Assembly: GCA_017645905.1 (NCBI GenBank)
Contig: JAGCNO010000027.1
Span: 1-64,000, forward strand
Direction: 5' to 3'
From: Prevotella sp.
GTDB taxonomy: Bacteria > Bacteroidota > Bacteroidia > Bacteroidales > Bacteroidaceae
Length of the DNA stretch: 64,000 nucleotides
Below the pieces are notes generated by a model. That model had not been told where the DNA came from. It was given only the letters and a program-made list of their open reading frames with translations, and made no database searches. This document shows positions 23,832 to 46,863 of this stretch, one piece after another. The number at the start of each line of letters is the position of its first letter. The stretch's first letter is position 1. A program made the translations under genes and the position numbers.

Positions 23832-23871
23832 AGTTGGTCTCCTTTCTTTATGATGTTAAGCAATTTGGGTG

Positions 23872-23879
23872 CAAATATA
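23872..23879 (-). promoter_or_regulatory. Promoter -7 element for the 22128-23831 gene
   Basis: Minus-strand TATATTTG about 40 nt before the start codon. Confidence 0.6.
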
Positions 23880-23957
23880 CAAATATTATTTGTAAATCCC
23901 AACATTTGCCTGCAGTTTTTTATTTCCCGGATTTAGACAAGCGAGATTCCCTACGGA

Positions 23958-24023
23958 GAAAGAACGGCAAATTCTCATAGAATTAACGGCAAATTCTCAT
24001 AGAAAGAACGGCAAATTCCTGGT
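23958..24023 (+). repeat. 22-bp repeat array C (3 units)
   Basis: Units at 23958, 23980 and 24002 with a subtype core GAACGGCAAATTC in place of GGCTNNTTC. It sits between the two dockerin genes. Confidence 0.88.
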
Positions 24024-24128
24024 GACGTATCCGCTCTTGCCCGGGAAGAGGCTGAAAAAACAGAGGAAGAGGATGTGTCAAAACACCCTCTTCCTCTCGC
24101 TTCATCGTGACTTATTCTCTAACGACGG

Positions 24129-27100
24129 TTATTCGGAATCAGCCGGGCGTAATTCCCTGCGACTGTTATTTGCCATGTAGTCGATGACGGTGGCGATGTC
24201 GGCTACGTCGACTCCCGTGTCGCCGTTGACGTCGGCTCTTTTCCTGTTATCGTCTCCCTCGATGACACCGGCCATGACATCGATGATGAAGCCTATGTCG
24301 GCCACATCGACGCCACCGTCGCCATTCACGTCGCAGGAGGAGGACTCATATTCTACGCTCACTATGACGTTGTCGCCAGGCATGGTAAAGGTCCACGTGC
24401 CATCGGTCTCGCCAGGAGTCAGTCCATACGGGATGTATACAACGGGGTTGGCGGGCACTCCGGCAGGCATCTCGCTGGTCGAGGTTCCCTTTCCTGTGTA
24501 GGTGTAGGAATTGCCGGAGATAGAACCTTCTGTCACGTTGCCTCCGATGGTGATGGTACCGATGGTGCCGTTGTCGCGTCCAGTACCGATGCAGTAGGGC
24601 GATTGCTGCCCTTTGGTGGATGTGACACTATTGACACCATCGGTGATGGTGATGTTGCCACAATTACTATTTCTACCACAACCGATGCCTGGTGAGTAGA
24701 CGCCTCCATTTGCAACAATGGTGCCACCCTCGATGACGATGTTGCCGCAATTCGTGTTGTTGTATCCGCCAATGGCTGGCTCCACGAGTGCAGTAGCCTC
24801 AAGTGAGCCGTTTCCTCGGATGGTCAGGGTCTTTCCCTCAGGCACGAAGATGGCGGAATAGGTAGAAGAGAAGCCTTTCACATAGTTCGTGCCGCTGAGG
24901 ATGATGGTGGCGTCGCCTTCGCAGGTGATGCCTGCCCAGGGGCAGATACTCCAGTTCACACCATCGATGGTTACGTCCTTTAGCATGACGGTGGCACCGT
25001 CGGCGATGGACACCTTTGTGTAGGAACCTAACTTTCCGGTCAGCGTCATGCCGTTGGTGGCGGTGAAGTCGCTGTTCACCGTGGAGAGGTCGCCATACCA
25101 CTGCTTCGCGGCGGTTACACTTTTCACGACCTTTGTGCCTGAGTAGGTGAGGGTGGCGATGGAATCGAAGGGCACGGGATTGGCGGGCGTGATGCTCCAG
25201 TGCTCTAAGTCTTCAGTACCTTCGGCGAAGGTGACGCGGCCTGCATTTTCGTATTCCACGTTCATCACTACGTCGGCGGCGGGCATGATGAAGGCCCACG
25301 TGCCTTCGGCCTCGCCAGCTCCCACTCCAAATGTGACGTGTGTAAAGGCGTCGGTAGGCACACCGGCGGGCATCTCGCTGGTCGATGTTCCCTTTCCTGT
25401 GTAGGTGTAGGTTTCATCGCTGATGGGACGTGTCACTGTGCCGCCGATGGTGATGGTGCCGCAGGATGTAGGTATATAAAAATTACTGCCTTGGCCGATG
25501 CTGTAGGGTGCACTTTGTCCTGCGTGGGCTGTGACGCTGTTGACACCGTCAGTGATAGTGATGTCGCCACAATCGCTTCCTAAACAACTACCGATTCCTG
25601 CTGCCATCCCGCCTCCATAAGCATTAATGGTTCCGCCCTCGATGACGATGTTGCCGCAACTTATGGTCATGCCTGCACCAATACCGGCACCAACTTCGTT
25701 TGAACGTGCTTCAAGCGAGCCATTGCCTCGGATGGTTAGCGTCTTTCCCCGAGGCACGAAGATGCCTGGATAATAGCTGTGGAATCCCTTCACATAGTTC
25801 GTGCCACTGAGGATGATGGTGGCGTCTCCCTCGCAGGTGATGCCTGCCCAGGGGCAGATGGCCCAGTTAACGCCGTCGATGGTCACGTCCTGCAGCTTCA
25901 CTGTGGCACCGTCGGCGATGGACACTTTCACGTTAGCACCCAGTCTTCCGGTCAGCACCATGCCGTTGGTGGCGGTGGCGTTGGCGTTGAGTGTGGCTAA
26001 GTTGCCGTCCCATTCCCTCGTGGCGGTGACGCTTTTCACGACCTTCGGTCCTGTGTAGGTGAGGGTGGCGTTAGAACCGTATGGCACGGGATTGTCAGGA
26101 GTGACACTCCAGTGCTCCACATCCTTGGTTCCTTCGGCGAAGGTGACAAAGCCTGCGGGTACGTATTCCGCGTTCACCACTACAGTGCTGTATGGCATGG
26201 TGAAGTTCCACGTGCCGTCGGCCTCGCCAGGGAATACCTCTACCGGTAAGGGAATATAGTTGTCGCTGGTAAATGCTGCGGCCGGCGATGGAGTAGCCAG
26301 TCCTGGAATTGAAACGCTTTGGGCGAGGGGGTCATACTTTTTATCGCCGATAGTGATGGTGCCGCAGGTACCGTTGTTGCCGGGGCCAATGCTGTAAGTA
26401 GAATTAGTGCTTCTGTAGGCAGTGACTATGTTGACGTCAGCATTTATGGTGATGTTGCCGCACTTACTTGCTGAACCGCCGCCGATGGCTGCTGCCTTAT
26501 AACCTGCATAAGCTTTGATGGTGCCGCTCTCGATGACGATGTTTCCGCAATTTACGCCTTCGCCTCCGCCAATAGCAGCACCATTTCCGTTCGAATGAGC
26601 TTCAAGTGAGCCGTTGCCTCGGATGGTCAGTGTCTTTCCCTCAGGAATGTAAATAGCTGGATAAGAAAAGTTGAAGCCTTTTACATAGTTCGTTCCGCTG
26701 AGGATGATGGTGGCATCGCCCTCGCAGTTGATGCCTCCCCATACGTATTTATCGTTATGCCCGCCCTTGATGTCCACATCGCGCAGCGTCACGGTGGCAC
26801 CGTCGGGGATGGACACCTTCACGATTTTATCTAGTTTTCCTGACAGAACCATGCCGTCGGTGACGGTAACGTTGCCGTTCAGGTCTGAAAGGTCGCCATA
26901 CCATTGCTTGACGGCAGAGATGTTATTCACATCATATACGCCTGAGTAAGTGAGGGTGACTGGCTCGCCTGGGCCGATGGGGCTTTCTGGTGAGTTGCTC
27001 CAGTTGTCAAAGTCTTTGCCTCCATCGTCAACGGCGACAAAACCGTCGGATCCTGCTGCATACCAGGTGCTGCCGTCGACAGCAATGACGTATGTTGTCC

Positions 27101-28295
27101 ATTCTCCGGGTACCCGGGTTTTATTGAGGGCATGGCCTAAGCCACCCTGCACGAGATTGGTCTGGGCCGTCGGGATGATGTCGTTCGAGTAGTAGACGCC
27201 CTCGGCGTCGGCATGGGCTTTGCCAGAGTTGTTGGTCAAGGCTATGGGATGGTAGAACCCTCCGCCCGACTCAAAAGTACCTGTTGTCAGGCAGTTGATG
27301 AGATTCATGGAGAGCCAGTCGCACCAGCCTACGAGTCCAGCGGCGCATTTGGTGAAGCCCGCGATGGAGCCGCTGAAGATACTGTTACGGATGGTCAGTC
27401 CTGTTCCGCCGCCGTGACCTACGATGCCGCCGCAATACATTTTGGCTTCGACACGTGTGGCAACGTTGCACCCGTCGACGAGCGTATTGCCGTCTTTGCA
27501 GTAGCCTACCAGTCCGCCAGCGTGGTTGTTGTGGGCATCGGTATTGACGGCGACGAGACCGCCCACGTTCAGGTTCTTGATGGTGGCTCCGTTGACGACG
27601 CGGAAGGGAGCGGCCTGCTCCCCGTCGGTGACGATATTCACTAAGAGCGTCTTGCCGTCGCCGTCGAACTCACCGCTGAAAGGATAGGCGGCGGTGCCCC
27701 ACATCGAGGTGACGGGAGCATTTGCGGTGCCTACGTCGGCAGTCATCTTGTAGTTACCGAGGCCGTAATAGAAGGCTGTGCCCGGGTTGGTCGTGAGTCG
27801 TGCGAACAGATCCCAGTCTTCCTTACTGCCGATGGTGAAAGGGTTAGAATAAGTTCCGTTTCCCTCGTGGGTTGTTACGGTCACTGCCGTGTAGGGGTTG
27901 TTCATCAGGGGATTAGTGTTGTCGCCCGACCCATCGAGGGCATAGACCCTCACGTAGTAGGTGCCCACATCGTCGATGGGAATAAAGGTTTGGAACCCGT
28001 GGCTGCCCGTAATGTTATACGCAGTGTTCACGTCAGGTCTGGGAACGTCGGCCGCACCGATGCTCACCGCTGTATATTCATACTGTTTACTGCAGGATGC
28101 GTCTGTGTAGATGTAGACATGAATTTCTATGGATGCTGCCGGAACGTCGGGGTCGAACGCCCATCCGGTTATGAGGATGTTGTTCAGTCCTCCCTCACAA
28201 AAGTCCAAGCAAAACTTTGGTTTATTGCCTGCCCACGCTGAGGCGGTGGTCATGATGGCCAGAAACAGCATCATGGCCTTAATAGTCCGTTTCAT
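24129..28295 (-). CDS. Large secreted GLUG / triple beta-helix / dockerin-tailed protein
   Basis: 1388 residues from ATG 28295 (28301 is also possible). After the signal peptide (ending SAWA) comes a beta domain, then a GLUG-like region (GGLVGYCKDG, CGGIVGHGG) near 240-330. Three long modules of ~300 residues follow (about 430-660, 715-965, 1015-1270), each with ITCEGDATIILSGTNYVKGF, LTIRGNGSLEA and CGNIVIEGGTI rungs; they are near-copies at DNA level about 900 bp apart. Two dockerin-like calcium repeats end the protein. Paralogue of the 22128-23831 gene, without its REP inserts. No catalytic motif seen; probably a surface binding protein. Confidence 0.82.
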   Translation of the reverse strand: MKRTIKAMMLFLAIMTTASAWAGNKPKFCLDFCEGGLNNILITGWAFDPDVPAASIEIHVYIYTDASCSKQYEYTAVSIGAADVPRPDVNTAYNITGSHGFQTFIPIDDVGTYYVRVYALDGSGDNTNPLMNNPYTAVTVTTHEGNGTYSNPFTIGSKEDWDLFARLTTNPGTAFYYGLGNYKMTADVGTANAPVTSMWGTAAYPFSGEFDGDGKTLLVNIVTDGEQAAPFRVVNGATIKNLNVGGLVAVNTDAHNNHAGGLVGYCKDGNTLVDGCNVATRVEAKMYCGGIVGHGGGTGLTIRNSIFSGSIAGFTKCAAGLVGWCDWLSMNLINCLTTGTFESGGGFYHPIALTNNSGKAHADAEGVYYSNDIIPTAQTNLVQGGLGHALNKTRVPGEWTTYVIAVDGSTWYAAGSDGFVAVDDGGKDFDNWSNSPESPIGPGEPVTLTYSGVYDVNNISAVKQWYGDLSDLNGNVTVTDGMVLSGKLDKIVKVSIPDGATVTLRDVDIKGGHNDKYVWGGINCEGDATIILSGTNYVKGFNFSYPAIYIPEGKTLTIRGNGSLEAHSNGNGAAIGGGEGVNCGNIVIESGTIKAYAGYKAAAIGGGSASKCGNITINADVNIVTAYRSTNSTYSIGPGNNGTCGTITIGDKKYDPLAQSVSIPGLATPSPAAAFTSDNYIPLPVEVFPGEADGTWNFTMPYSTVVVNAEYVPAGFVTFAEGTKDVEHWSVTPDNPVPYGSNATLTYTGPKVVKSVTATREWDGNLATLNANATATNGMVLTGRLGANVKVSIADGATVKLQDVTIDGVNWAICPWAGITCEGDATIILSGTNYVKGFHSYYPGIFVPRGKTLTIRGNGSLEARSNEVGAGIGAGMTISCGNIVIEGGTINAYGGGMAAGIGSCLGSDCGDITITDGVNSVTAHAGQSAPYSIGQGSNFYIPTSCGTITIGGTVTRPISDETYTYTGKGTSTSEMPAGVPTDAFTHVTFGVGAGEAEGTWAFIMPAADVVMNVEYENAGRVTFAEGTEDLEHWSITPANPVPFDSIATLTYSGTKVVKSVTAAKQWYGDLSTVNSDFTATNGMTLTGKLGSYTKVSIADGATVMLKDVTIDGVNWSICPWAGITCEGDATIILSGTNYVKGFSSTYSAIFVPEGKTLTIRGNGSLEATALVEPAIGGYNNTNCGNIVIEGGTIVANGGVYSPGIGCGRNSNCGNITITDGVNSVTSTKGQQSPYCIGTGRDNGTIGTITIGGNVTEGSISGNSYTYTGKGTSTSEMPAGVPANPVVYIPYGLTPGETDGTWTFTMPGDNVIVSVEYESSSCDVNGDGGVDVADIGFIIDVMAGVIEGDDNRKRADVNGDTGVDVADIATVIDYMANNSRRELRPADSE
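24480..27000 (-). repeat. Three tandem coding modules of about 900 bp
   Basis: Each module contains the same string of beta-helix codons; landmark CTTTCCTGTGTAGGTGTAGG (plus strand) recurs at about 24490 and 25391, and ATGATGGTGGC at ~24901, 25813 and 26702. A fourth copy is in the neighbouring gene at ~22440-23230. This indicates duplication of the module within and between genes. Confidence 0.8.
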
Positions 28296-28344
28296 AATCA
28301 TAGCTTTTAAGTTAAACAATAAATATTATATTCAAATGGATTCA

Positions 28345-29205
28345 TTACTTCCCTGCCATCTTGTCTATGATGGAGGCGATGTCGGCCACGTCGACATTGT
28401 TGTCGCCGTTCACGTCGGCCTTGTCTTTGTATTGGAGAGATTTTCCGGCCATGACGTCGATAACGGCGGCGATGTCGGCCACGTCGATGCTGCCGTCGTT
28501 GTTTACGTCGCCTGTAGGCTTCGGCTCAGGCATGTCGTACGACCCGATGGCATTGATTCTGAAGTGGTAACTGACCGGTTTTGTCTGATATTGAGAACCA
28601 TGAATCGTGAACTTGACTGCAGCAAGCCCAGCTACGGCATCAGCAATTTCAATTTTGCCCATGCCCCAGCCAGCCTGCTTGAATTGACTCCAAGGTATCC
28701 TGACGAAAGTGCCTTCTGGTGCCGCTTTTAAATAAACGGAAGGGTTATCGTATCCGAGCTGCCTGTCAACGTAATCCCCTAATCCGAGCTCGATGGTCAC
28801 CTGTTGTTCGCTTGCATACGAGATGGCTATACCATTCCAGGCGGTAGCATCGGCTGTAAACTGCTGATGGGTTATAGGGTCTGCTCCGGCAACGTTGAAG
28901 CCAACACCTATGAATGGGGCATAGTATAATTTACCTAAGTCGAGTACTGCCGTACCGCTTAATCCCCCACACTTTTTTACAAGATTGTCATTAATCTCGT
29001 CTGTTTCAATATCCCAGACAATTTTCGACTTTCCTCCGTCTGCATTGTCATTGAAAGAATACCATTCATTTTTGAGAACGGCATCTTCGAGCTCGAGACC
29101 TGTCTCAATCCTGGCTTTACCCTCTGAGCCATACCATGCAAACTGTGCCTTGGCTCCTGCGGGCAGGAGGAGCAACGTGGCGATAAGTAGATTGAAATGT
29201 TTCAT
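28345..29205 (-). CDS. Secreted dockerin-tailed protein, unknown N-terminal domain
   Basis: 286 residues. Signal peptide (MKHFNLLIATLLLLPAGAKA), then a ~200-residue beta-sandwich-like domain (WYSFNDNADGGKSKIVWD ... GVGFNVAG ... VRIPWSQFKQAGWG) reminiscent of carbohydrate-binding domains, then the linker PEPKPTGD and two dockerin-like repeats (DVNNDGSIDVADIAAVIDV, DVNGDNNVDVADIASIID). First of three dockerin genes in a row; the toxin gene ends 35 nt upstream. Ligand unknown. Confidence 0.78.
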   Translation of the reverse strand: MKHFNLLIATLLLLPAGAKAQFAWYGSEGKARIETGLELEDAVLKNEWYSFNDNADGGKSKIVWDIETDEINDNLVKKCGGLSGTAVLDLGKLYYAPFIGVGFNVAGADPITHQQFTADATAWNGIAISYASEQQVTIELGLGDYVDRQLGYDNPSVYLKAAPEGTFVRIPWSQFKQAGWGMGKIEIADAVAGLAAVKFTIHGSQYQTKPVSYHFRINAIGSYDMPEPKPTGDVNNDGSIDVADIAAVIDVMAGKSLQYKDKADVNGDNNVDVADIASIIDKMAGK

Positions 29206-29834: not shown

Positions 29835-30011
29835 CTTTTGGAGTGTTTTTTCTAAAGCCATTCCTTTTTCTACAGCTACGAAACTGTAGATGTGTGTGTC
29901 ATGCGGGTTGAAAAATGTTTACAGAAGCGTTATCATATCTTCAAAATTCTGACGGAGGACGGCCCACGACTCATCGGAGCGAGTTTTGAGGGGGCTTTAG
30001 GGGGTCAGGGA

Positions 30012-30090
30012 GAAAGAACGGCTTTTTCTCTGGTAAAGGATAGTTCTTTCTATGGGAAAAAGCCGTTCTTTCCCATAGAGAAAGCCGTCC
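30012..30090. repeat. 22-bp repeat array D (4 units, orientation flips)
   Basis: Units at 30012, 30034, 30056 and a partial at 30078. The first is in forward orientation and the last two in reverse, so 30012-30028 and 30056-30072 are perfect 17-bp inverted repeats around a near-palindromic pivot unit. Confidence 0.85.
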
Positions 30091-30267
30091 AAACTTCGGG
30101 CCTGATACGATGTGAAACTACATGTAAATAAATCGGAAATTGTTCATATACAGATGTTTACGACAAGCATTGGCGTAAAATCCTGGTGCTTTGTGGGAGG
30201 CGTTTTTCGCGCAAAAATTCTGTTCTACAGGCGAAAAAGCTTCAAATTTGCCGTTTCGCTGTGCAGA

Positions 30268-30348
30268 TTTCTGCACAAATGGGTTGATTTGTGCAGAAAT
30301 AAAAAAGTCAAAACCTGTACAAAAGGGGTGTTTTGTACAGGTTTTGAC
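30268..30348. other. Twin hairpin of element D
   Basis: Hairpin 1: TTTCTGCACAAAT / ATTTGTGCAGAAA, 13-bp perfect arms, 6-nt loop. Hairpin 2: arms 30307-30324 and 30331-30348 perfectly complementary over 18 bp, 6-nt loop GGGGTG, core CCTGTACA. Confidence 0.85.
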
Positions 30349-30403
30349 CTAATTGAAGACTTTTTCCGGGTGTGTTTTACTGTCAGTTTTCTTTACATTA
30401 CCT

Positions 30404-31474
30404 CTATTTGATGATGATCTTCTTGCCGTTGATCACATAGATGCCCTTTCTCAAAATCGGAGCTTTAGAATTGAAGACTGTGGATTCCATGCGGCGGCCT
30501 TGCAGGTCGTAGACAGGACTTCCAAGGATCAGTTTTCCATTTTCAATTTCAGAAATGCCCGTTGTGGTGTCGGTGATGAGCTTTGCTCCTTTTGAGTCGG
30601 CTGGGAAGTCGGTAATATAGGCTTGGTTGGCTGGAATTGTAGTGTCCGTATTAAGCCAGAATCCCAGCTCGTTTGTCTCCTCGGAATAACTGAAAGTAAG
30701 CACGCTGCTTGTCTCTGCTGTTGTCGGCTCTGTGGTGCCCTTGAGGATGGATGTCTGGTCTTTGAACAATGAAGAGGCCTCTGCAAGGGTCTTTTCGTCG
30801 ACGACAGCTGAGAGCCATTCACATGAAGCCTGGCCGTCGGACTGGAGCACCACCGGTGTGTCCTTCGGCAGAATGTCGGAATCGATTTCCTCCATCACCA
30901 GGTTTCCGTCTTCGATTCCAGTGACGACCCAGATGGTGACACCTTCGGGAACACGGGCATCGAAGGGCAGGCAGGTGGTAGCCCATCCATCCTCGTTGAA
31001 AGTGGTGGTGATGGGTGCCGGCAGGTTAATGTAATAGGGTTCCTTTGCCTTTCCATACCCGTCTTCAGTAAATGTCACACCTTGGTCTACCTCGATGACA
31101 TGTCCGTTGGTGAAGACCTTGAAATAGAGCTTGTCCTTGTTCTCGCCGTAGACGGTCAGCCTCAGCAGACTGATGTATTTATTATTGTTGAAGTTGGCAG
31201 GATTGCCTTTGCCGCGCAGCTCGTCGCCGCAGTAAGCGGCAACAACAGTCTCGTTGCCCAGCACCTCACCCTCGTTGACGGGAGTCCAGACTCCTTTGAC
31301 CAGTGTGACCATGCGCACATAGCCGGTGACGGTCATGTTGCTCTGGTACTTTGTATAGTCGAACTCATCGTTAAAGGGATCGTCACCCTGAGCCATGAGG
31401 TTGGGGACACAGAGAGCACAGAGCACACAGAGTGCACAGAGCTTGGCTAATAATTTCTTATAATAGATAGGCAT
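30404..31474 (-). CDS. Secreted protein with T9SS type A sorting tail
   Basis: 356 residues from ATG 31474. The signal peptide h-region (KLCALCVLCALCVPN) is unusually Cys-rich because it is encoded by a CTCTGTG tandem repeat. The body is beta-rich and similar in style to the C-terminal part of the upstream giant (GYVRMVTLVKGVWTPVNEGEVLGNETVVAAYCGDELRG). The last ~45 residues are a Prevotella-type sorting tail: VYDLQGRRM ... LRKGIYVINGKKIIIK. It lies 80 nt downstream of the giant gene with a hairpin between, so probably one transcription unit. Function unknown. Confidence 0.8.
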   Translation of the reverse strand: MPIYYKKLLAKLCALCVLCALCVPNLMAQGDDPFNDEFDYTKYQSNMTVTGYVRMVTLVKGVWTPVNEGEVLGNETVVAAYCGDELRGKGNPANFNNNKYISLLRLTVYGENKDKLYFKVFTNGHVIEVDQGVTFTEDGYGKAKEPYYINLPAPITTTFNEDGWATTCLPFDARVPEGVTIWVVTGIEDGNLVMEEIDSDILPKDTPVVLQSDGQASCEWLSAVVDEKTLAEASSLFKDQTSILKGTTEPTTAETSSVLTFSYSEETNELGFWLNTDTTIPANQAYITDFPADSKGAKLITDTTTGISEIENGKLILGSPVYDLQGRRMESTVFNSKAPILRKGIYVINGKKIIIK

Positions 31475-31495
31475 GATGTTCTCTTTTTTGTTGAA

Positions 31496-31542
31496 ACAAA
31501 TTAGCACTGATCAGGATGATGGCCCCGACAGTGCTAATTTGT
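31496..31542 (-). promoter_or_regulatory. Intercistronic hairpin between giant and T9SS gene
   Basis: ACAAATTAGCACTG (31496-31509) and CAGTGCTAATTTGT (31529-31542): perfect 14-bp arms, 19-nt loop. The stretch after it on the minus strand is A-rich, not a T tract, so it is more likely an mRNA stabiliser or partial attenuator than a full terminator. Confidence 0.55.
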
Positions 31543-31554
31543 ATCTAATCAGTT

Positions 31555-34500
31555 TTACTTAACCTTTTTCTGTCCGTCCACGATGTAGACACCCTTGCGG
31601 AGCTTGTGGCTCTGGTCGGTTGTCTTAACCTTACGGCCCTGGAGGTCATAGGTTGTAGACAAGCTGGAATCATCACCGTTGATGGAAGCAATGCCAGTTG
31701 CCTCGCCGAGGTTGATGATGAACGGGTGGCTCGGTGAACCGATGACGGCATCCGTCTTGTAGGTGATGGACTGTCCATTGACCATTGAAGTCTCACCGTC
31801 GATGGCCACACGGAAGGTCAGGGTAGTGGCGTTATCGCCAGGGATGGTGATGTAGACCATGCCGCGCTCATCGGTGATGGCAGCCTCGCGGCACTCGTCT
31901 CCGGCAAAGATGCCCAGTTCGGCTCCGCTGATGGCTGTACCGTCATTCACTACCTGTGCGATAAGTACCATGTTGTATGGATAATTGTGGTAGTCGACAG
32001 GAGTGAACTCTGAGGGTTGAGCGGTGAGCGGTGAGAAGTTGGAGGTTGCCCTGCGAGCACCGGCAGCTGTCTTCGTAGGATAGGAGAAGGTACGTGCTGC
32101 CTTACCCTGAATCTTGTAACCCAGACCAGGAGCGAGCTGCTTCAGGTTGCCCCACCAGGTGCCAGTGTCGAAGTAAGCCACTCCGCGCTGTCCCTTGATG
32201 ATCTCGTCAGTGTTGGGCTGCATATCGGCCAGAGCGTCGTCAAGACTCATCACTGACATGCAGTTGAAGGCAACCCAGCTCCATCCGTTATTCACGGAAA
32301 TGACATCCACGTCGGGCTTCACACGGTGTCCGGTAACGCTGAGCGTGAAGGCCTCGCCAGTCTGAACGACATACATCTCGCTGTTGTTCATATCGCCGAT
32401 GCCGTCGAGCCACTCCTCGTCGTCAAACTCGGAAGAGTTCGTCTGGCTCTTCACCATCTTTGCCTTGCCTGAGACTTTGCTGAACACGTTCTCCACGTCG
32501 AATACGTTGGGCTTGACGGCGAACGACATCCAGTTCCAGCCCTTACCCAGGTCAATGTTCTGCTCAATCTCGTCGGTAGCCGAGAGAATCACAGGCGCAT
32601 TGTAACGGCCGTAGAGGTTGCTCGGGTCGAAGGAGGTTTCGAGCAGTTGCGGAGTAGTAGAGGTAGCGGTGTAGGCCTTAACGACAGGATAGATAATGCC
32701 CGAAGAAGCATCGTATGCCTTGAACTCAACAGGCTTGTCTTTCTCGCTGTTGTTGCCATAGATGTTCATGGTTACGAAGAAGCTGTCGAAGGTCTTGTCG
32801 TACTCGGGATGAGCCACACCACGACACTCACCGTCGATGAATGCACCTACCAGGTCGTCCTCGTCCTCGCTCTGTATGTCAAGAACGTAGAGACCACCAA
32901 TCAGGTTCATCATCTCCTCATAGTCACCCACGATGACGCTCCACAGCGGTTTCTCGCCGGTGACCTTCACCTTGATGGTGAGCGGAGTCTCGATACCGTT
33001 GTTACCCTTCAGGTAGACGGTCTCCTCATACTTGCCGATAGGCGTTGCCGGGCTGATGGTGAAGGTCACCTGGCTCTCGCTCCTCGGGTTCGTCGTGCCA
33101 TACTCGCTGTTGGCCTTCAGCCATGACGGCATGCCTTCGAGGGTCCACATCTGCTGCTTGCCGCCCTTGTTGACGATGGTGGCGGTAACGCTGCTGCTGG
33201 TCTCTACAGGCAGCTCCACGCTCAGCTCGTCGTCGGCCCACACCAGCTCCTTGCGGTTGATGAAGGCACTCCAAATAGCAGATACGGAGTTGTTGCCATT
33301 CTCGTCGACAACATCACGCACGGTGAAGTTGATGGTGCAGCCTTCGAGGGCGGCGGCATCCTCTTCCTCGTTGAGTTCGATGACAATCTTATTGTCAGAT
33401 GCCGTGAAGCTATAGCCAACGTTGGTCTCGGTTGGCTTAGTGCGCAATGCAGGTGCATTGTCCGTGTAAACTATTGATGACGGAGCACCGGCAATCGTCC
33501 ATACCTCTGCGGTATGTCCGCTCTTAACGAGGTCATTTGCATATCCGACGGTCTGTACCTGGTTGCCACTGTCAAGTTGTTTCATCTCGAAGGGATAGTA
33601 GGCTACAAGGCCATCCTCCTTGCCTGTAAGGCGTACTTTACGGTCGCCAGAAAGCTTTTCGGCATTGAGTGTGGCATTCCATACGCGGATTTCATCGATT
33701 TGTCCGTTGAAAGCGCGGTCGTAGGAATAATTAGCAAGATCAGGATTAACCGTGATACGGCGTGCGCCTACGATGATGTTGTTTGTAGCAATGTTGCCTA
33801 CGTTGGCGGCATCGGTTGTCAGGCAACGTTTGCCGTCCACGTATACAGCGGCAGCACCCTGACGTAGCACGTTCAGCGCAATGTGGTGCCATGCGTTGTT
33901 GGTCAGCACTGGACTGTTTGTTGCCACTGAGTTTTCGTTCGTGGGATCGTAGGCTGAACTGGTAGTCAGTTGCAGTTGTCCGTTAGCGTTTGTCCACAGT
34001 GCAATCTGACCGGCCTGTAGCAGCTGGGTCTCTTTCGCCTGAGCGTCACCGCGCATCCAGAACTCGATGGCATAGTCATCGTCGGTGCAGTAAGTCATGT
34101 CGCTGACATTAAAAGTCATATAGCTGTTATTCAGGCTGACAGCTTTATTCACATTATTCATATACCAGGTCTCGGCTGGCATGGTCATGTTGCGGCTGCG
34201 AGCGTAGTCGCGGATGGTGGTACCCTCGCCCTCATTCATCTTCCAGTAGCCGATGAGGTGGCGCGTCGACGGACTCTTTGTCTTTGAGCGGTTCAACAGG
34301 GCGGTGGTCATGTCGTGGGCCTCATCCCAGAGCAGCAGCTCATGGATGGCACCCGTCATCTGCTTACCTACACTTAGCGGACCGTTGCCGTTGTATTTTA
34401 CAACTGACTTGCTACCACTGTCTTTGAAGAGATCAATTGTAGCCTCGTCGTAGGCTACGGTGGCACTTATTACGCCGTCTGTGCCGTTGTTCTTGTAACA

Positions 34501-37500
34501 CAGGGTCAGGAAAGACCATTTACCGAAAGGAATTGCATAATCAGAGGTGTAGGGGGTGCCGGCGATTGTCACCACAAGCTTTCCTTCGGAGTTGGTTTCC
34601 ACGGTCAGTTGGTTGGTTCCCTTTCCGTGGGTCAACAGTGTGCCTTCACCGCTAATATTCAACCATGTATCTATCGAGAAATCTTTCTCAATCAGGTTGA
34701 TGTCGGCTTCAGTCTGGGCAGTAACATCAACGTTTTGCATGCTCAGGGCGGTTTCGTGGGCTATCTCTGCTCCGTTGAGCACGCCGGTCACTTTGAAGTT
34801 TGCCTCCTTGGTAAGCATGCCCTTGAGTATGGCCTCGTTGAAGGTAACGCTTAACTGGTCGCCGATGTCGAGCACACCATCTGCAGGCTCAGGCTGACCG
34901 AGCGGACGTGGTTTCTGCATGTCCTTTGTCAGGGCAATCTCGTTACTATAGCGATATACTTCACTAGTGCCATAAGTGCTGGCCGAAACCACGCGGAAGA
35001 GGTAGTTGCCGTCGCTGAACTGTGCCATGGGCAGCGTATATGTTACGCTGGCTCCCGTGGCAGGCAGCAGCAAGTTGTTCTTGGTCGTATCGCTTGCGTT
35101 GACCACATACTCCTTCAACTGTGTCCAGTCGGTAGCACCCTGCCTCTTGTACTGCAGGCGGAATGCCTTCAGACCATTATAGTTGCGGTCGAAGCCTGAG
35201 AATGTCAGTCTTAGGTCAGAGCCTGTCAGAGTGTTTATCGTCGTGTTGCTCAGAGCCAAATCAACGGGTGACGATGAGGGCACATAGTAGGCCTTAATGA
35301 AGATGGTATCGGCAATTTCCTCGGGCTGTGACTCTGAGGCGAACACAATACCAATTCCCTTGTGGTAGAGGTCGTGACCTTCCACCTTGTTACCCTCATA
35401 ATCGAGCACGCTGGTGTTAGTCTGTCTGAGCTGTAGGCTCTTGGTGAGCATTTGGTTACCAGGCACCTTGATGAGGCGACCCTCAGTAAGAGGCATGCCG
35501 TCAATGCTAATCAGAGCACCGTCGGGGTTGGTCTCGTTGAGAACGAAGAGTTTATAGGCCACGTCGGCACCAATCTCTGAAATGTTGCCCAGTCGGATTG
35601 TGTAGTTGGCTGGCGAGCCGTTAGGAATGTCACTTATGATGGGGGCGTCAACGTCAATCTGCGGCACCTCAATCTGCATTGTAGCTTCCATGATGATGGG
35701 ATAATCGCCGTTCTTCTTGTAGAAGTTCGTCCGTACCTCGCCCTCGTAGGGGTTGCTGGTTTGTCCGGCACGTGTACGGAAGATGGGACTGAATGCACCA
35801 TACTCATAGACGTCAACCGTCAGTGCGTCTTCACCCTCTTCGGCCAAAGTGTAGCTGTAGTGGGTCTTATTTGTCGTACTGTTCTCTGTCGTACGGTGGT
35901 AGCCCGCCGATGTCTCGGTACCGACATCAAAGATAACACCGGTATTGTTAAGCATTACGCCCCATGCTCGGTTGAGGTGTACGCCTGCGGACACCTGAAC
36001 TTCGTATGAAGAGCCGTGCTCCTCTTCCATATCAGAGCTTTCGTTGACACTGGTGCCGCCATCGAACGAGAGATTCTTGGCATCTTGTGAACGGTTTTCA
36101 AAGGCCTTGACCTTTTCTTCCTCATTGAACGCGAGGTATCTCTTCCAGGTGTCAATCTGGTTGTTGCACCATTCCACGCTGTCCTGATAGTCCTGCGTTT
36201 CGTCGGGAACAATCATTCTGTATGACGGTCCTTCGGGGCAAGCCGACTTGGTGGCTTCGTCACCCCAAACAGGATCATAGTTAGAAAGTCCGAACCTTGG
36301 GTCATCGGGTTGAATGGTTGTCACATATATAGGATATTTTCCATCTGCTGTGTGTCCTGCGGTGTCGGTTACGCACTTCAGCATGGAGTTGCGCAAGCTC
36401 TCCAGATTGGGCAGCAGCGTGTTAATAATGTGGCTCTGAGTATAGCTGAATGCTGTGCCGAATGTCAGGCCAGTTGTAATAGCATCGTCGACGTTCAGCT
36501 CCCAATCTTCAGATGAACCTACACGATGGAATCCCAGATTGCGGGCCTTGCCGAACACGACGTTGGTAGCTGTGCCAATGAACACGTCGCCGTCAGCACC
36601 TACAAAGCCAGGATCATCACTTGTCGAAATGGTTCTCATCGTCTCTATGGAGCGACTCCAACTATTGCCAGCCTCACCCTCAATGTTGATCATGATGCCA
36701 ACTTCAAGGTCACTTATAGATTTTGCATCATCAATCTTTGCCACACCAATACCAGTGGCAGTCTTAATTGTAGCACCAAGCTTTGATGTAGTGGTCAGAT
36801 GAGTCTCACTATTCCAGGTACCGAGGTTTGATGTTGACTTGCTCGTCACAACGCCTGAACCCCATTCGGCTGATGAGCCTGTTCCAGGAGGATCGCGCAA
36901 AATCATATCAACCATATCGGGACCACTGGTCACGAAGTTGCTTCCAGTAGGCAACGAGCCTACGACGACACCCGGCATGCCATCTTTTGATATCCACTGA
37001 TATGGGCGTCCTTCTATATCGTAGTTCATAGTGATGGTTCGCGTATAGGGATAAGTGATGTTGGGCAATCCTGCAGTCCAAGTATAAGTGGCACGGCCGA
37101 GACTGTCCAGTGGCAACTGGTTATCCTGAAGTTCGGCCACCTCACCGGCCTTCACTTCATTGCCCTCCACCGTGCAGTCCTTGTTGTAGACTGGCTGCTG
37201 GTCGGACAGGGCATTGTTGATAGTCACAATAAGGTCGGCCAGGGGTACATGGTCGGTAACTTCCTCGTTAGCGTCCTTGTTCACGTATTCCTCGTAGGCT
37301 TCCAGGTTGAATGTATAGCGTTCATCCATCTCAAACACTGGACCACCATATTTATAAGTCACCACGTTGGTCACAGGGTCTTTAGAATAGATGTCTTTGA
37401 CGGTCATTTTCCCGTTCTCGTCGTTTATCTCATAGCTGCTGATACCGAATGCACCGTCCTTCTGACCTTCCTGCACCACATTGAAGTGGGGATCGGAATG

Positions 37501-40500
37501 GAATATCTGCTTCAGCAAGGTGTTGTAGGAGAAGAGTTGTTGCGTTCCGTCATCGTTGTAGAGTGTATCGCTGTATGATGAAACGATGTCGGTAAGGTTT
37601 ACGGTAGGCAATACGCCAAAGTCGATTTCGGGGTTGCTGAGCACATTCATTCTGAAAATCTTGTATTCCAGCGGCGGCAATAGGGCGGAGAACTCACCCG
37701 TCAAGGAGTCGGTCTGGATGAAGATCATTTTGCACTCATCGTTGGCTCCACGCCACGACCTGCTGTTAATCGACGTAGTGTCAGAAGCTATGGGGAGGGT
37801 TACCATTCTGGTATCATATCTGAAGGTGGTTCCCTCCTCAATCTTCTCCACGTTCATGCGCGGAGTTTCATTTGTTGGCGTGAGCACCATCTCGGTGATA
37901 CCGATGTTGTTATTGCTCTTGCGGAAGCCTACAGGCTTGTCGCCCTCGATGTTACCACCGACCACACGTCCGGCGAAGTTCACCAGTGTCTCGTCGTAGA
38001 AGTCAAGGTTCTCTAACTTGCTGTTGAAGGTTTGTCTCAGACCTACGCCATTGGGATCCTTAGGATAGCGTCCGCCATCTTTAAACACGTGCTTGTTCTT
38101 ACTCACGGAAATAAAGTGGTCACCAATGGGCACGCTGATTTCATACTCACCCAGTGAATTAGTCATCACGGGTTCTCCATCTTTGGAGCAGGTGATGCCG
38201 TCAATCAAGAGGCTTACTCCCACGACGGGATAGTCTGTGTCGGCGTAGAACACCTTACCCCTGACGGGGAACGATGAGACGTCCTCAAAGTCCACGCCGC
38301 TGTGAACGAGTGAGCTGCTGCTCACGTAGACCGTCTTATAGACAGGCGAGAATTCATGGATGCCCAACTGCGGGGTGATGATGTAGCTTATGCCCTCACC
38401 AGAGAAAGGAACGCCGTTCACCTCGTAACTGCCCAGTGAGTCGGTATAAGCCATCAGGCTCAGCTGATCAGAAGAAGGTGTGGAAGAAGAACTGATAGCT
38501 GAAACGTTGGCCCTTGCATGTCGGCCGTTAGGAACACCGCCCGTCTTAGAGAAGTCGTAGGCCATAGTCTGGCCGTAAATGCCTTCGTCAAGGGGATAGT
38601 AGACGGCCAGCTCGGACTCGTTACCCACCAAGGTATGGTTGTAGTTGTGCAGGATTTCCTCCTCATTCAAGGCCTTGGTGAAGAAGCGGAACTCATCGAT
38701 ATAGCCAGAATAGTTGTTGCTTTGTGGGGCTGACAATGATCCGTAGTTTCCTATTGCAAAGTTGGCGGTTCTTTTACTCACATCACCCCATGCGAGGGGC
38801 TTGTTAGTCCACACCTGTGATGACTGTAGGGTGTCTGCAACGGGTACATAGAATGTCGTGGTGCCAGTAGCGTGTTTGTGTACCACTGTCACATGGCTCC
38901 ATTGGTTGGCAGGAATATAAAGATTGGAAGCTCCGCGTCCTGCAATCCATGCGCCCAGCTTATATCGGTCTTTACTGGGTTCGTAGTCCAATCCTATGTG
39001 GAATATTTGATTCGCGTCTAACACGATATAACGCGTTGAGTCAGACATGACTTTGCTGTCGGGATTAATATAGAGTTGTATGGAGAAATCTCCCTCAAAC
39101 AGCTTTTGAATGTCCTCTTTTGTCGTAGTACAGGAGAAGCCTGTTCCTGAACCACCCTCTAATTTCAAGCTGCGCAGTCCTGCTGTCTCGTCGTTGGGAG
39201 TCAGCACGACTTTCACATCCTTCACGGCTGTTCCCGTTCCGTAGGTAATGCGTCCACTGACGTTACCCGACGAGCGGCTGTAACCGTCGGTAATGACATT
39301 TTTTCCATAGACAATGTTGCCGTCGTTTTTGAGGAGACTTGGTGTCACGCTATACTCGTAGAAGTCGCCAGGCATCGCCGTCACGTCGTCATAGCTATAG
39401 ACAGCTCCCGTGCCAGAAGTACTATAAATCTCACTCCACACATTATTAGTACTGTTGTCCAACCGCTTTCGCTTGATGGTGAAATAGGTAGTAGAGGTAC
39501 CTATTTGGTCGGCTTCCCACTTCAGTTTCACCATGCTGCTGAACATACCACGCGAGGCTGTGAACGACTTGATGGTTGTAATGCCCTTCAATACACCATT
39601 GGCTGGCTCTGAGATAAACATCTGGCCCATAGCCGTGGTCTTGACCCTATAATAATAGGTTGTCAAGTTTTGTACGTTTGTGTCGTCGTATGCCCCCTTT
39701 GTAGTATCGTTAACTATTTCGAATCGGGCAATTTCCGACCAGTTGCTTTCATCTAACGACCGTTCAAGGATAACGGTATATTTGTTAGTGGGACTTGCAT
39801 CGCCGAACGCTGTGTTAGTCCAAGATACGGAGATTTTATTCGTCAGCGTATCAGTAGCAGTTATATTAAAACTAAAGGATGGTTTAATTGATATAGAGGT
39901 TGAAGCCTTAAGCTCTGAAGGTAAACTGCTTACATCTGTAGGCACGAAATAGACCTCAAAGGTGTTAGTCTTATTATATCCATCGATGGTCGCCTCGTAA
40001 CTCCTTTTCTCGTATGTCAGGACGTTTTGAGACAAAACTTCACCCGTGGTACTATTCCTGACAGCCCATTTACCTTCCGTACAGCGGTTGTTGGCTGCAT
40101 CGACAGTCCAAGTAAGGGTCGTCTTCCTTGTCCACTGATTGGGCTCAGAGCATTTAACATCAACTGGATAGACAAATCCAGGCACATTAGGAGTAAACCA
40201 TCTGTAGATGTGCATATCACCACTAACGTCGCCAGTAGTAATAGTCCTGCTCAGCTGAACGGGTAAGTTCAAGGTATTCTTGTAATTGTTTCGATCTACA
40301 GAGCACGTCATATTGCTAAATGACGTTGTATAGTTGCTGTTCTTGCTGAAGCACCCATCGGCAACATCCTTGTATTCAGAAGGAGCTGAGCCGAAGCTGG
40401 CATAGAGCGCCACGTTTGTCGACTTACTCCCCAAATTACTGCCGCTCACAGTCACTGAACTCCTGCCAGTAGTTAAAGCCGTGATGGAGGTATTCTTCCA

Positions 40501-41112
40501 GTCTTCAAAGCCTTTGATGTTGCTGAAGACTTTTTCCTCATAACCTTCTCCTTTATTGCAGTTGAGTCTCCACCAACCCTTAATTTTTACAGTGTGCGTC
40601 TGGGCAGTGTTCCAGTTTTTCAAGTAGATACGCATTTCAATGTAGGTGCGGTAATATCCTTCATTGCCCTTTTTGGCTTCGTGGTAAGGATTCCAAAAGC
40701 GGATGGTACAGTATTCGTGATTGTAAGTATTGCCATACCATCCATCCTTACCGCAGGCAGACTCGGCACCACTCCAGTTACCCTCTTCGCTGCCTTCAGC
40801 CTTGCCTCCTGGCCATGCCAGCTCGTTGTCGGGAGAGCAGATGTATTTACCGTCCACGTAAACGGCGGGACCGGGGTTGCCACCTTCTGTCTTCTTGTGG
40901 GTGAAATAGCTGTCGCAGTCATTCGCATCATAATAAAGCACACTAACGCCAATGAAAGGCTCTGTCTCGGTCGGTTCATGAAAGACACTCATGCGAGTAT
41001 TGTCTTTAAAATGCATAACAGCCCACGTCGGGCTGCTGCCTCCGATGAGGCACGCGAGAAGCAATAGCGGCACCCGCCACCACGACTTCGAAAGTTTCGT
41101 CTTCTTTTCCAT
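31555..41112 (-). CDS. Giant secreted multidomain LamG protein with T9SS tail
   Basis: 3185 residues, one open frame. Signal peptide (RVPLLLLACLIGGSSPTWA). Recognisable parts: fibronectin III-like domains ~410-560, a LamG/concanavalin-like domain ~645-870, two carboxypeptidase regulatory-like domains ~930-1080, LamG domains at ~2130-2290 and ~2335-2480, a BACON/Ig-like domain ~2625-2720, and a sorting tail (YDLQGRKVK ... LRKGVYIVDGQKKVK) at the end. The region ~1250-1950 is unassigned. LamG pairs usually bind glycans or proteins, so an adhesin-like surface role is likely; this is inference. A short repeat insert is present at about residue 3020 (SNFSPLTAQPSEF). Flanked by structured elements D and E. 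Confidence 0.85.
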   Translation of the reverse strand: MEKKTKLSKSWWRVPLLLLACLIGGSSPTWAVMHFKDNTRMSVFHEPTETEPFIGVSVLYYDANDCDSYFTHKKTEGGNPGPAVYVDGKYICSPDNELAWPGGKAEGSEEGNWSGAESACGKDGWYGNTYNHEYCTIRFWNPYHEAKKGNEGYYRTYIEMRIYLKNWNTAQTHTVKIKGWWRLNCNKGEGYEEKVFSNIKGFEDWKNTSITALTTGRSSVTVSGSNLGSKSTNVALYASFGSAPSEYKDVADGCFSKNSNYTTSFSNMTCSVDRNNYKNTLNLPVQLSRTITTGDVSGDMHIYRWFTPNVPGFVYPVDVKCSEPNQWTRKTTLTWTVDAANNRCTEGKWAVRNSTTGEVLSQNVLTYEKRSYEATIDGYNKTNTFEVYFVPTDVSSLPSELKASTSISIKPSFSFNITATDTLTNKISVSWTNTAFGDASPTNKYTVILERSLDESNWSEIARFEIVNDTTKGAYDDTNVQNLTTYYYRVKTTAMGQMFISEPANGVLKGITTIKSFTASRGMFSSMVKLKWEADQIGTSTTYFTIKRKRLDNSTNNVWSEIYSTSGTGAVYSYDDVTAMPGDFYEYSVTPSLLKNDGNIVYGKNVITDGYSRSSGNVSGRITYGTGTAVKDVKVVLTPNDETAGLRSLKLEGGSGTGFSCTTTKEDIQKLFEGDFSIQLYINPDSKVMSDSTRYIVLDANQIFHIGLDYEPSKDRYKLGAWIAGRGASNLYIPANQWSHVTVVHKHATGTTTFYVPVADTLQSSQVWTNKPLAWGDVSKRTANFAIGNYGSLSAPQSNNYSGYIDEFRFFTKALNEEEILHNYNHTLVGNESELAVYYPLDEGIYGQTMAYDFSKTGGVPNGRHARANVSAISSSSTPSSDQLSLMAYTDSLGSYEVNGVPFSGEGISYIITPQLGIHEFSPVYKTVYVSSSSLVHSGVDFEDVSSFPVRGKVFYADTDYPVVGVSLLIDGITCSKDGEPVMTNSLGEYEISVPIGDHFISVSKNKHVFKDGGRYPKDPNGVGLRQTFNSKLENLDFYDETLVNFAGRVVGGNIEGDKPVGFRKSNNNIGITEMVLTPTNETPRMNVEKIEEGTTFRYDTRMVTLPIASDTTSINSRSWRGANDECKMIFIQTDSLTGEFSALLPPLEYKIFRMNVLSNPEIDFGVLPTVNLTDIVSSYSDTLYNDDGTQQLFSYNTLLKQIFHSDPHFNVVQEGQKDGAFGISSYEINDENGKMTVKDIYSKDPVTNVVTYKYGGPVFEMDERYTFNLEAYEEYVNKDANEEVTDHVPLADLIVTINNALSDQQPVYNKDCTVEGNEVKAGEVAELQDNQLPLDSLGRATYTWTAGLPNITYPYTRTITMNYDIEGRPYQWISKDGMPGVVVGSLPTGSNFVTSGPDMVDMILRDPPGTGSSAEWGSGVVTSKSTSNLGTWNSETHLTTTSKLGATIKTATGIGVAKIDDAKSISDLEVGIMINIEGEAGNSWSRSIETMRTISTSDDPGFVGADGDVFIGTATNVVFGKARNLGFHRVGSSEDWELNVDDAITTGLTFGTAFSYTQSHIINTLLPNLESLRNSMLKCVTDTAGHTADGKYPIYVTTIQPDDPRFGLSNYDPVWGDEATKSACPEGPSYRMIVPDETQDYQDSVEWCNNQIDTWKRYLAFNEEEKVKAFENRSQDAKNLSFDGGTSVNESSDMEEEHGSSYEVQVSAGVHLNRAWGVMLNNTGVIFDVGTETSAGYHRTTENSTTNKTHYSYTLAEEGEDALTVDVYEYGAFSPIFRTRAGQTSNPYEGEVRTNFYKKNGDYPIIMEATMQIEVPQIDVDAPIISDIPNGSPANYTIRLGNISEIGADVAYKLFVLNETNPDGALISIDGMPLTEGRLIKVPGNQMLTKSLQLRQTNTSVLDYEGNKVEGHDLYHKGIGIVFASESQPEEIADTIFIKAYYVPSSSPVDLALSNTTINTLTGSDLRLTFSGFDRNYNGLKAFRLQYKRQGATDWTQLKEYVVNASDTTKNNLLLPATGASVTYTLPMAQFSDGNYLFRVVSASTYGTSEVYRYSNEIALTKDMQKPRPLGQPEPADGVLDIGDQLSVTFNEAILKGMLTKEANFKVTGVLNGAEIAHETALSMQNVDVTAQTEADINLIEKDFSIDTWLNISGEGTLLTHGKGTNQLTVETNSEGKLVVTIAGTPYTSDYAIPFGKWSFLTLCYKNNGTDGVISATVAYDEATIDLFKDSGSKSVVKYNGNGPLSVGKQMTGAIHELLLWDEAHDMTTALLNRSKTKSPSTRHLIGYWKMNEGEGTTIRDYARSRNMTMPAETWYMNNVNKAVSLNNSYMTFNVSDMTYCTDDDYAIEFWMRGDAQAKETQLLQAGQIALWTNANGQLQLTTSSAYDPTNENSVATNSPVLTNNAWHHIALNVLRQGAAAVYVDGKRCLTTDAANVGNIATNNIIVGARRITVNPDLANYSYDRAFNGQIDEIRVWNATLNAEKLSGDRKVRLTGKEDGLVAYYPFEMKQLDSGNQVQTVGYANDLVKSGHTAEVWTIAGAPSSIVYTDNAPALRTKPTETNVGYSFTASDNKIVIELNEEEDAAALEGCTINFTVRDVVDENGNNSVSAIWSAFINRKELVWADDELSVELPVETSSSVTATIVNKGGKQQMWTLEGMPSWLKANSEYGTTNPRSESQVTFTISPATPIGKYEETVYLKGNNGIETPLTIKVKVTGEKPLWSVIVGDYEEMMNLIGGLYVLDIQSEDEDDLVGAFIDGECRGVAHPEYDKTFDSFFVTMNIYGNNSEKDKPVEFKAYDASSGIIYPVVKAYTATSTTPQLLETSFDPSNLYGRYNAPVILSATDEIEQNIDLGKGWNWMSFAVKPNVFDVENVFSKVSGKAKMVKSQTNSSEFDDEEWLDGIGDMNNSEMYVVQTGEAFTLSVTGHRVKPDVDVISVNNGWSWVAFNCMSVMSLDDALADMQPNTDEIIKGQRGVAYFDTGTWWGNLKQLAPGLGYKIQGKAARTFSYPTKTAAGARRATSNFSPLTAQPSEFTPVDYHNYPYNMVLIAQVVNDGTAISGAELGIFAGDECREAAITDERGMVYITIPGDNATTLTFRVAIDGETSMVNGQSITYKTDAVIGSPSHPFIINLGEATGIASINGDDSSLSTTYDLQGRKVKTTDQSHKLRKGVYIVDGQKKVK
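32012..32045 (-). repeat. In-frame TCACCGCTCACCGCTCA repeat in giant gene
   Basis: Minus-strand CTTCTCACCGCTCACCGCTC encodes FSPLTAQP in a linker between a beta domain and the next module; it resembles the simple octamer repeats found between genes. Confidence 0.55.
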
Positions 41113-41221
41113 AGGTTTTTTAATTATTAGTTAGACATTATGTTAAGTTATTAGTATTATGCGATGCTTCCGTAGCATAGCGGATTGTGTCAAAAAATAG
41201 GTTTGTGTCAGTTAACAGCTG

Positions 41222-41253
41222 CAAAGATAATGCTTTTGTCTGAATTCTGCAAA
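41222..41253 (-). promoter_or_regulatory. Promoter of the giant LamG gene
   Basis: Minus-strand TATCTTTG (41222-41229), TTTG (41250-41253), 20-bp spacer. Leader of about 100 nt including a small ATGCT...AGCAT stem. Confidence 0.78.
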
Positions 41254-41449
41254 CTTTATGGGACTTTTTTTTCGTCTACAATAACAAAATGTTACAAATA
41301 CCGTCTGGCAACCACTCGGACTGGCACAGTACTTGTCTTATAAAAGTGGGAAAAATATTTACAACGACCCCGTTGTGTCTTCAAAATTCTGACGGAGGAT
41401 GATCCGTGGCAACGGAGCGAGTTTTGAGAGGGCTTCAGGGGGTCTGGGA

Positions 41450-41550
41450 GGGAAAACGGCTTTTTCTATGGGAAAGAATAGTTCTTTCTATGGGGAAAAG
41501 CCGTTCTTTCTCAGAGAAAAAGCCGTTCTTTCCCATAGAGAAAGCCGTCC
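41450..41550. repeat. 22-bp repeat array E (5 units, orientation flips)
   Basis: Units at 41450, 41472, 41494, 41516 and 41538. The second unit is the pivot, GAAAGAA-TAG-TTCTTTC, itself a perfect palindrome; the first is forward, the last three reverse. Confidence 0.87.
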
Positions 41551-41738
41551 AGATTTCGGGCCTGATACGTTGTGATTTGGAGGAAAACCAAAGACGAAGA
41601 ATTTTGAAATCGCTAACACACAGACACTTGCGACAAACACCAACAAAAAGGCTCAGAACTTTGGGGGACGAACAAAGGAAACAAAAATCTCATTCTGGAG
41701 GCAAAAAAGCACCGAAACAGGGGTGGTTTCTCCTGTTT

Positions 41739-41820
41739 TCCTGCACAAATCTACTCATTTGTGCAGGATTTTGACGGTCAAATCCTGCACAGAACCGATG
41801 TTTTGTGCAGGTTTTCGACC
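41739..41820. other. Twin hairpin of element E
   Basis: Hairpin 1: TCCTGCACAAAT / ATTTGTGCAGGA with a 6-nt loop. Hairpin 2: core CCTGCACA / TGTGCAGG with flanking GGTC / GACC. Relative to copy D, T-A pairs have become C-G pairs on both sides of each stem. Confidence 0.82.
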
Positions 41821-42003
41821 TAAAACAAGTCTTTTCCATGATGCATTTTACTGTCATTTTTCTTTACAATTTTCACGTCTAATACCGCCTGTTGATTATT
41901 TCTGCCCGATAAAGGCAGCAGCTGCGTACAGTTCAATAGCGCTTTCTTTTATTGAGCGACATCATGGATTAAGCTCATTTTATCACTTTCCTCAAAAATG
42001 GGG

Positions 42004-46775: not shown

Positions 46776-46863
46776 GTTTGAACGGTTCTTTCTAAACGAA
46801 AAAGCCGTTCTTTCGCTTTGAAAAAGCCGTTCTTTCTAATCGAAAAAGCCGTTCTTTCTATTC
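46776..46863 (-). repeat. 22-bp repeat array F (about 4 units)
   Basis: A degenerate unit at 46776 and full units at 46798, 46820 and 46842 (GAAAAAGCCGTTCTTTC on the plus strand). The last unit supplies the stop codon of the THUMP methyltransferase. Confidence 0.88.

Follow-up and report, generated by a model that had tools for sequence, protein, structure and literature searches.

Paired structured repeats in Prevotella belong to a dispersed intergenic family with direct TTTACA-type ends, probably spread as non-autonomous mobile DNA

A 64,000-nucleotide (nt) stretch of a Prevotella sp. genome (GCA_017645905.1, contig JAGCNO010000027.1, positions 1 to 64,000; below, the window, and its genome, G000) contains two copies, D and E, of a structured intergenic element on either side of a giant gene. 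D and E are probably members of a family that spread as non-autonomous mobile DNA with fixed, direct ends of TTTACA type, and that seemingly has not been described. It fits the wide sense of a miniature inverted-repeat transposable element (MITE) or other non-autonomous element: it is dispersed, multi-copy and has defined ends, and there is no transposase gene, the copies examined (332-535 nt) being too short for one. That they move, or moved, is what we infer from their sequences. If this is true, the genus has an abundant intergenic element family (9 left-end matches, at E ≤ 1, in 400 kb of the relative G099) that plain sequence searching misses because the sequence diverges while ends and layout stay.

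D occupies 29918-30397 (480 nt) and E occupies 41358-41868 (511 nt); each begins and ends with TTTACA, at 29918-29923 and 30392-30397 in D and at 41358-41363 and 41863-41868 in E. The two are 72% identical over aligned columns and share, on the same strand and in the same order, a left end, a leader, a 22-nt repeat region, a spacer, two tail hairpins and a right end. Read inwards, the left end is TTTACAACGACC and the right end AATGTAAAGAAAAATGAC, so that the terminal inverted repeats of a MITE in the strict sense are absent. Both copies fold far better than dinucleotide shuffles (n=60), with z scores of -7.6 (D) and -8.6 (E). The original prediction, made on the letters of the window, had placed two co-oriented copies here, and that stands, with sharper ends; the twin hairpins that it described are real in both copies, and its paired stem change (TGTACA/TGTACA in D, TGCACA/TGTGCA in E) was read correctly, D proving the odd one out at this pair when more copies are added. 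A coding origin is rejected, as that account also held: 11 copies have no frame in common and their longest open stretches lie in differing frames. The window has no Rfam or tRNA match, and no Rfam family was found at gathering score in the window and 18 loci, the only matches being two tRNAs beside one copy; at Rfam thresholds, then, the earlier statement that no described family is recognised holds.

Within G000, blastn with D returns 76 matches: D and E, long ones at C59 and C130, one to the tail at C181 (which turned out to be complete), and dozens of short ones to the 22-nt repeat. Tail covariance model R1, built on 5 copies, finds 12 right-end loci, 11 of which also have the left end (C6 is truncated). 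All 11 complete copies start with TTTACA and end with TTTACA (TTGACA in C32) in direct orientation. Across these 11 the information per position drops to about zero once ~7 nt before the left hexamer or ~1-4 nt past the right one have been left behind; the bias outside the hexamers consists of an A-rich GAAAAAT run before the left one and, after the right one, of 1-4 bases with a weak preference. The copies are 459-535 nt long and 46-73% identical pairwise (46-67% when D or E is compared with the others), and they form an old family, much diverged, in which the ends have been preserved. The search for further copies that had been proposed as a check has found them, here and in the genus. What is not supported is the suggested link between the copies and the two genes that D and E enclose, as direct repeats able to mobilise a cargo. 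D and E are 2 of 12 dispersed copies at an unremarkable spacing: when 12 copies are placed at random (contig structure ignored), 37% of simulations contain a pair within 11.5 kb, and 20% contain such a pair with both copies oriented alike. Their position around the giant gene is probably due to chance, and since random placement gives such a spacing readily, nothing particular about the enclosed genes can be read from the copies.

The element looks species-specific to a plain sequence search: a 25-base right-end pattern with three or fewer mismatches matches 1 of 120 genomes of the genus, G000 alone. Left-end model R3, which uses sequence only, detects matches (E ≤ 0.001) in 55 of 200 genomes of the genus, with at least 5 per genome in 20, at least 20 in 8, and none detected in others. 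Applied to the whole family (251 genomes, E ≤ 1e-5), R3 matches 5 genomes, all from this one of the 30 genera sampled. Left and right ends are seen together in 8 genomes. Of 34 loci read in five relatives, 29 have a right TTKACA 345-417 nt after the left hexamer (G090 10/10, G099 7/8, G016 5/6, G209 4/6, G029 3/4); over all 34 the left hexamer is TTKACA in 32 and TTAACA in 2. Both ends are also present at three loci of G014 (388-411 nt apart) and one of G012 (373 nt). G090 has the 17-18-nt sequence TATGAATWWTYTTKACAA at both ends in direct orientation, with 15 two-ended copies, each 332-444 nt long, on 305 kb of contigs that were chosen for having matches, making this copy density unrepresentative. 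A comparison of the G090 end repeats within elements (permutation p 0.03) is set aside, since one of its 15 rows, L267, had been parsed with left equal to right. Two sets of candidates outside these genomes were rejected: the R1 match in G030 is, by eye, a terminator after a gene, and none of the 5 contigs found by a right-end scan of a contig collection (4 of Flavobacteriaceae, 1 of a gammaproteobacterium) has a left-end match.

Three G090 copies (L266 ~17225-17342, L269 1-92, and L154 on the reverse strand) share ~100-120 nt directly upstream of the left end, which may be another repeat abutting the element or part of a longer subtype.

Ends and layout persist among species while inserts and hairpins vary. 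In four relatives (G099, G016, G209 and G029) element lengths form a ladder of 22-nt steps (357, 379, 401), with end-to-end distances at 357-358, 378-381 or 400-401 nt in 15 of 19 loci; two G029 copies stand at a half step, 368. The insert contains near-perfect stems of 42-55 nt in G090, 40 in G209 and ~20 in G099. The insert of the G016 copy L216 has a 22-nt repeat (read by eye), a period-22 repeat lies within the element in G014 and G012, and the G099 elements contain G099's own unit (also by eye). The D/E unit, GAAAGAACGGCTTWTTC plus 5 variable bases, also stands free of the element, with 327 + 305 two-unit matches in G000 and none in 119 other genomes. Among 15-30-nt arrays, those of period 22 outnumber every other class in 400 kb of G099 (25 of 53 rows), lead narrowly in G090 (5 rows, compared with 4 of period 21) and turn up at 7 of 29 loci from other genomes, the units differing between genomes.

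Free 22-nt arrays of this kind are found in the window at 5319-5419, 13659-13742, 23957-24018, 46785-46864, 54916-55001 and 59384-59465, and are intergenic, with a 7-nt overlap of 46785-46864 with the end of an open reading frame (ORF). Others are at L284, L289, L290, L298, L301, L303 and L308, and at L231-L250 of G099. The period is constant and the unit differs from genome to genome, several units looking palindromic by eye. The free arrays look like a genus-wide minisatellite with species-specific units.

The stems can be judged by how well their partners match when one side of the alignment is slid. For the two tail stems in 5 copies, 89.7% of cells are paired (22-55% when the partner is slid by 1-3 columns), and 6 pairs are changed on both sides, a number reached by 17 of 500 shuffles. 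Hairpin 2 aligned over 15 copies (12 from G000 and 3 from G014; L044 of G012, whose hairpin is in another register, and L049 were left out) has 82.9% of cells paired as against 24-51% slid, and 3 of 500 shuffles attain its covariation score. The span from hairpin 2 to the right terminus hardly varies among the 15 (91-93 nt); G012 has a hairpin of unrelated sequence, ATCCGGCAAAAG...CTTTTGCCGGAT, at the same place. The G090 hairpin alignment (A6) holds 11 of 15 copies, the other 4 having no match to the search string. In the leader, the stem AACTCGCGTATTTG ... CAAATACGCGAGTT of other species was read off one row (L224) of an alignment, A7, that was made with a structure-free model: 44 rows of 7 genomes from 41 sources, counting two rows that are reverse-strand matches inside the same leaders, and without C32 and C16 (2 of the 11 G000 copies), 4 of 10 G090 loci, G012 and three G137/G070 loci. 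L208, L210 and L223 are likewise not among the aligned loci. In A7, 73.1% of cells pair, as against 31-50% slid, and 41 cells have both sides changed, which none of 500 shuffles reaches. The stems carry compensatory changes, with mixed support from shuffling. The notion of selection on pairing, originally drawn from D and E, is thus supported in its signs by the covariation of the stems, the absence of which would have undone it.

The genomic setting was surveyed on a rough ORF map of 32 copies (14 in G090, 7 in G099, 11 in G000), 26 of them classable. These lie on either strand, among tandem, convergent or divergent genes; in 6 of 26 a neighbouring mapped ORF overlaps the copy by 14-146 nt. 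The overlap at E is with a GTG-started ORF, whose likelier start, an ATG at 42044, is outside E. ORFs cover half a copy in 5 of 11 cases in G000 and 1 of 7 in G099. A conserved gene, putatively DUF3109 and present in 110 of 120 genomes, takes its final codons and its stop from the right end of C181 (L011 1937-1950). Among 30 loci of this gene, an R3 match occurs in the ~1.5-kb flanks only in G000 and in none of the 29 relatives.

A number of observations weigh against D and E being structured mobile DNA. The next gene beyond the one that C181 ends is not conserved in relatives, so the absence of R3 matches from the 29 is no proof of insertion; joined-flank queries spanned a junction in 0 of 33 cases, finding no empty site in the sequence examined, and no target-site duplication is seen apart from the hexamer. 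Neither D nor a G090 copy matches anything in phage and plasmid collections, and viral contigs contain no exact-pattern match for the G090-type left end or 22-nt array; the one right-end match on a viral contig, with no left end and no intact tail hairpin, was taken as chance. The ends are not everywhere in evidence: right-end model R2 matches 15 of 200 genomes, mostly weakly (it is strong in G000, G014 and G140), the right hexamer is absent from 5 of the 34 loci of the five relatives, and three loci of G137 and G070 have no clear right end, so that a left-end match alone is no proof of a complete element. As for the stems, shuffling often yields as many doubly changed pairs (118 of 500 shuffles for hairpin 2, 129 of 500 for the leader stem); sliding the leader partner by +2 or +3 still leaves 31 or 36 double-changed cells, nearly as many as the 41 of the unslid stem; RNAalifold predicted no pair from A7; and the three structures tested had each been taken from member sequences, a choice that gives them an advantage over their slid versions. 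Some relatives fold little or no better than shuffles (z of 0.0 and -1.5 in G029, -2.1 and -0.6 in G016, among 17 elements scored, with G209_L218 excluded as excised too long, at 842 nt and ending in TTTACG).

As mobile DNA the element would probably be recognised through its hairpins and be moved by an enzyme acting in trans. The TTKACA hexamers (TATGAATWWTYTTKACAA in G090) would be its cutting or joining sites, because the left and right ones have the same orientation, whereas ordinary transposons end in inverted repeats. Leader and tail stems may serve as recognition structures, more likely in single-stranded DNA, and the insert, be it a 22-nt array or a long hairpin, would be a separate, fast-changing part that differs among species. 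The bolder proposition, that these traits define a new class of mini-transposon (direct TTKACA ends, recognition by shape, compensatory stems, a species-specific 'brick' changing length in 22-nt steps and an enzyme that is no known Y1 transposase), is tentative and on balance doubtful. Direct ends without inverted repeats, in genomes without a detected Y1 gene, would suggest that small DNA can be moved in a manner so far unrecognised, and the species-specific inserts would provide a ready system for studying the spread and genome-wide replacement of minisatellites.

Among known systems, non-autonomous derivatives of IS200/IS605 insertion sequences (PATE-like) have direct ends, stem-loops towards the ends and no inverted repeats. 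These traits are shared by the Prevotella elements, which differ in having over 40 nt between tail hairpin and right end and in that no matching TnpA partner or parent insertion sequence was found. By analogy, BrickBuilt is nearest in layout and the REP/RAYT systems are nearest in spirit. The accessible part of its description (PMC4596501) presents BrickBuilt as a MITE of Porphyromonas gingivalis with a spacer-less tandem array of a 23-nt unit and IS5-like terminal inverted repeats of GAGACCTTTGCA / TGCAAAGGTCTC types, found by BLASTn in P. gingivalis only, with homologues in P. gulae. Both are intergenic and multi-copy and combine a leader, a tandem minisatellite and a tail; long hairpins are predicted in both, neither has a transposase remnant or an Rfam match, and both have a limited host range. 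In contrast with BrickBuilt as reported there (PMC4596501), the elements here have direct TTKACA ends, no inverted repeats and covarying stems, a period of 22 rather than 23 (units compared by period alone), and a spread over species of one genus. Membership of BrickBuilt is rejected on the ends of 11 copies, which are direct and TTTACA-type, not IS5-like and inverted. REP/REPIN sequences with RAYT (TnpA-REP) genes, so far as the accessible text of PMC6006769 describes them, are likewise short, structured intergenic repeats at high copy; unlike them, the present elements are ~330-535 nt long with fixed leader, tail and ends, and are also in genomes without a detectable Y1 gene. In searches of open-licence papers no Prevotella or Bacteroidetes element closer than BrickBuilt was found.

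Four other explanations have to be weighed against mobile DNA with direct ends. That the copies are paralogous structured RNAs or cis-regulatory regions with a cellular function, multiplied by duplication, has an outside chance: three stems with compensatory changes and a conserved tail spacing argue for it, as do the A-rich and T-rich flanks of tail hairpin 2 in D, which resemble a two-way terminator, but copies occur on both strands and among tandem, convergent and divergent genes alike, matches per genome range from none detected to at least 20 within one genus, inserts differ among species, and Rfam has no match. At the other extreme, the idea of only an old local duplication around the giant gene retains next to no probability; D and E do resemble each other more than they resemble other copies, but ten further loci in G000, and many more across the genus, have ends of this kind and already refute it. 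A tyrosine-type recombinase that inserts small circles at a short core, leaving direct repeats as attachment sites, would account for the direct 17-18-nt end repeats of G090 and the direct hexamers elsewhere; it is improbable, the hexamer being short and no circle or single-site locus having been seen.

A little less improbable than such a recombinase, and still unlikely, is an element of IS200/IS605 or REP-RAYT type, which a Y1 HUH transposase would cleave in single-stranded form at TTAC-like sites. The target of IS608 is TTAC; here TTAC lies within the end hexamer, the ends are direct without inverted repeats, stem-loops lie towards both ends, and G000 has a RAYT-like ORF. The distribution of the Y1 domain speaks against it: PF01797 is found in 12 of the 20 element-rich genomes (at least 5 R3 matches), as compared with 111 of 200 overall, and 8 of the 20 (G012, G070, G099, G137, G152, G188, G209 and G215, some of these genomes being incomplete) have no match at E ≤ 0.001, so Y1 does not track the element. 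With PF01797 hardly commoner where the element is abundant, RAYT/Y1 was rejected as a general mobiliser. Moreover, tail hairpin 2 of D and E ends 42-43 nt before the right hexamer, no element end is visible by eye in 1.2 kb around the RAYT-like gene of G000, and the RAYT gene that adjoins a copy in G169 has long repeats of its own. No TnpA-bearing copy with the same ends is present among the 15 G090 copies (305 kb) or the 34 loci, whole genomes not having been searched.

The RAYT-like ORF of G000 is at L060 987-1724 (minus strand; G000:C40); it has the motif MPDHLHG, scores below the PF01797 cut-off and has an imperfect palindrome just upstream. In G169 (C80) the RAYT gene is flanked by long REP-like repeats, GTAGGGGCAGGCCCTGTGCCAGCCCG..., at L261 400-600 and 1350-1490.

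Table 1. Parts of copies D and E, in window coordinates
Feature	Position	Strand	Basis or remark
Left end of D: GAAAAATG-TTTACA	29910..29923	+	Boundary information profile, 11 copies
Leader of D, with homologues among the leaders of other species in the genus	29924..30008	+	Alignments; R3 match 29908-30000
22-nt repeats of D: GAAAGAACGGCTTTTTC-type units, found in either orientation, with an inverted repeat of 21 bp	30009..30095	+	
Tail hairpin 1 of D: ATTTCTGCACAAAT-GGGTTG-ATTTGTGCAGAAAT	30267..30300	+	14 bp, 6-nt loop
Tail hairpin 2 of D: GTCAAAACCTGTACAAAA-GGGGTG-TTTTGTACAGGTTTTGAC	30307..30348	+	18 bp, 6-nt loop
Right end of D: TGTTTTACTGTCAGTTTTC-TTTACA	30373..30397	+	Boundary profile, right-end pattern
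Left end of E: GAAAAATA-TTTACA	41350..41363	+	Boundary profile
Leader of E	41364..41452	+	Alignment; R3 match 41348-41438
22-nt tandem array of E	41453..41548	+	Repeat analysis
Tail hairpin 1 of E: TCCTGCACAAAT-CTACTC-ATTTGTGCAGGA	41739..41768	+	
Tail hairpin 2 of E: GGTCAAATCCTGCACAGAA...TTTTGTGCAGGTTTTCGACC	41776..41820	+	
Right end of E: CATTTTACTGTCATTTTTC-TTTACA	41844..41868	+	Boundary profile, right-end pattern

Elsewhere in the window, the region 22128-28516 holds minus-strand genes with repeated modules ~0.9 kb apart; a 79-nt end motif recurs in three adjacent genes, and the ORF at 28345-29205 has a Pfam match to Dockerin_1.

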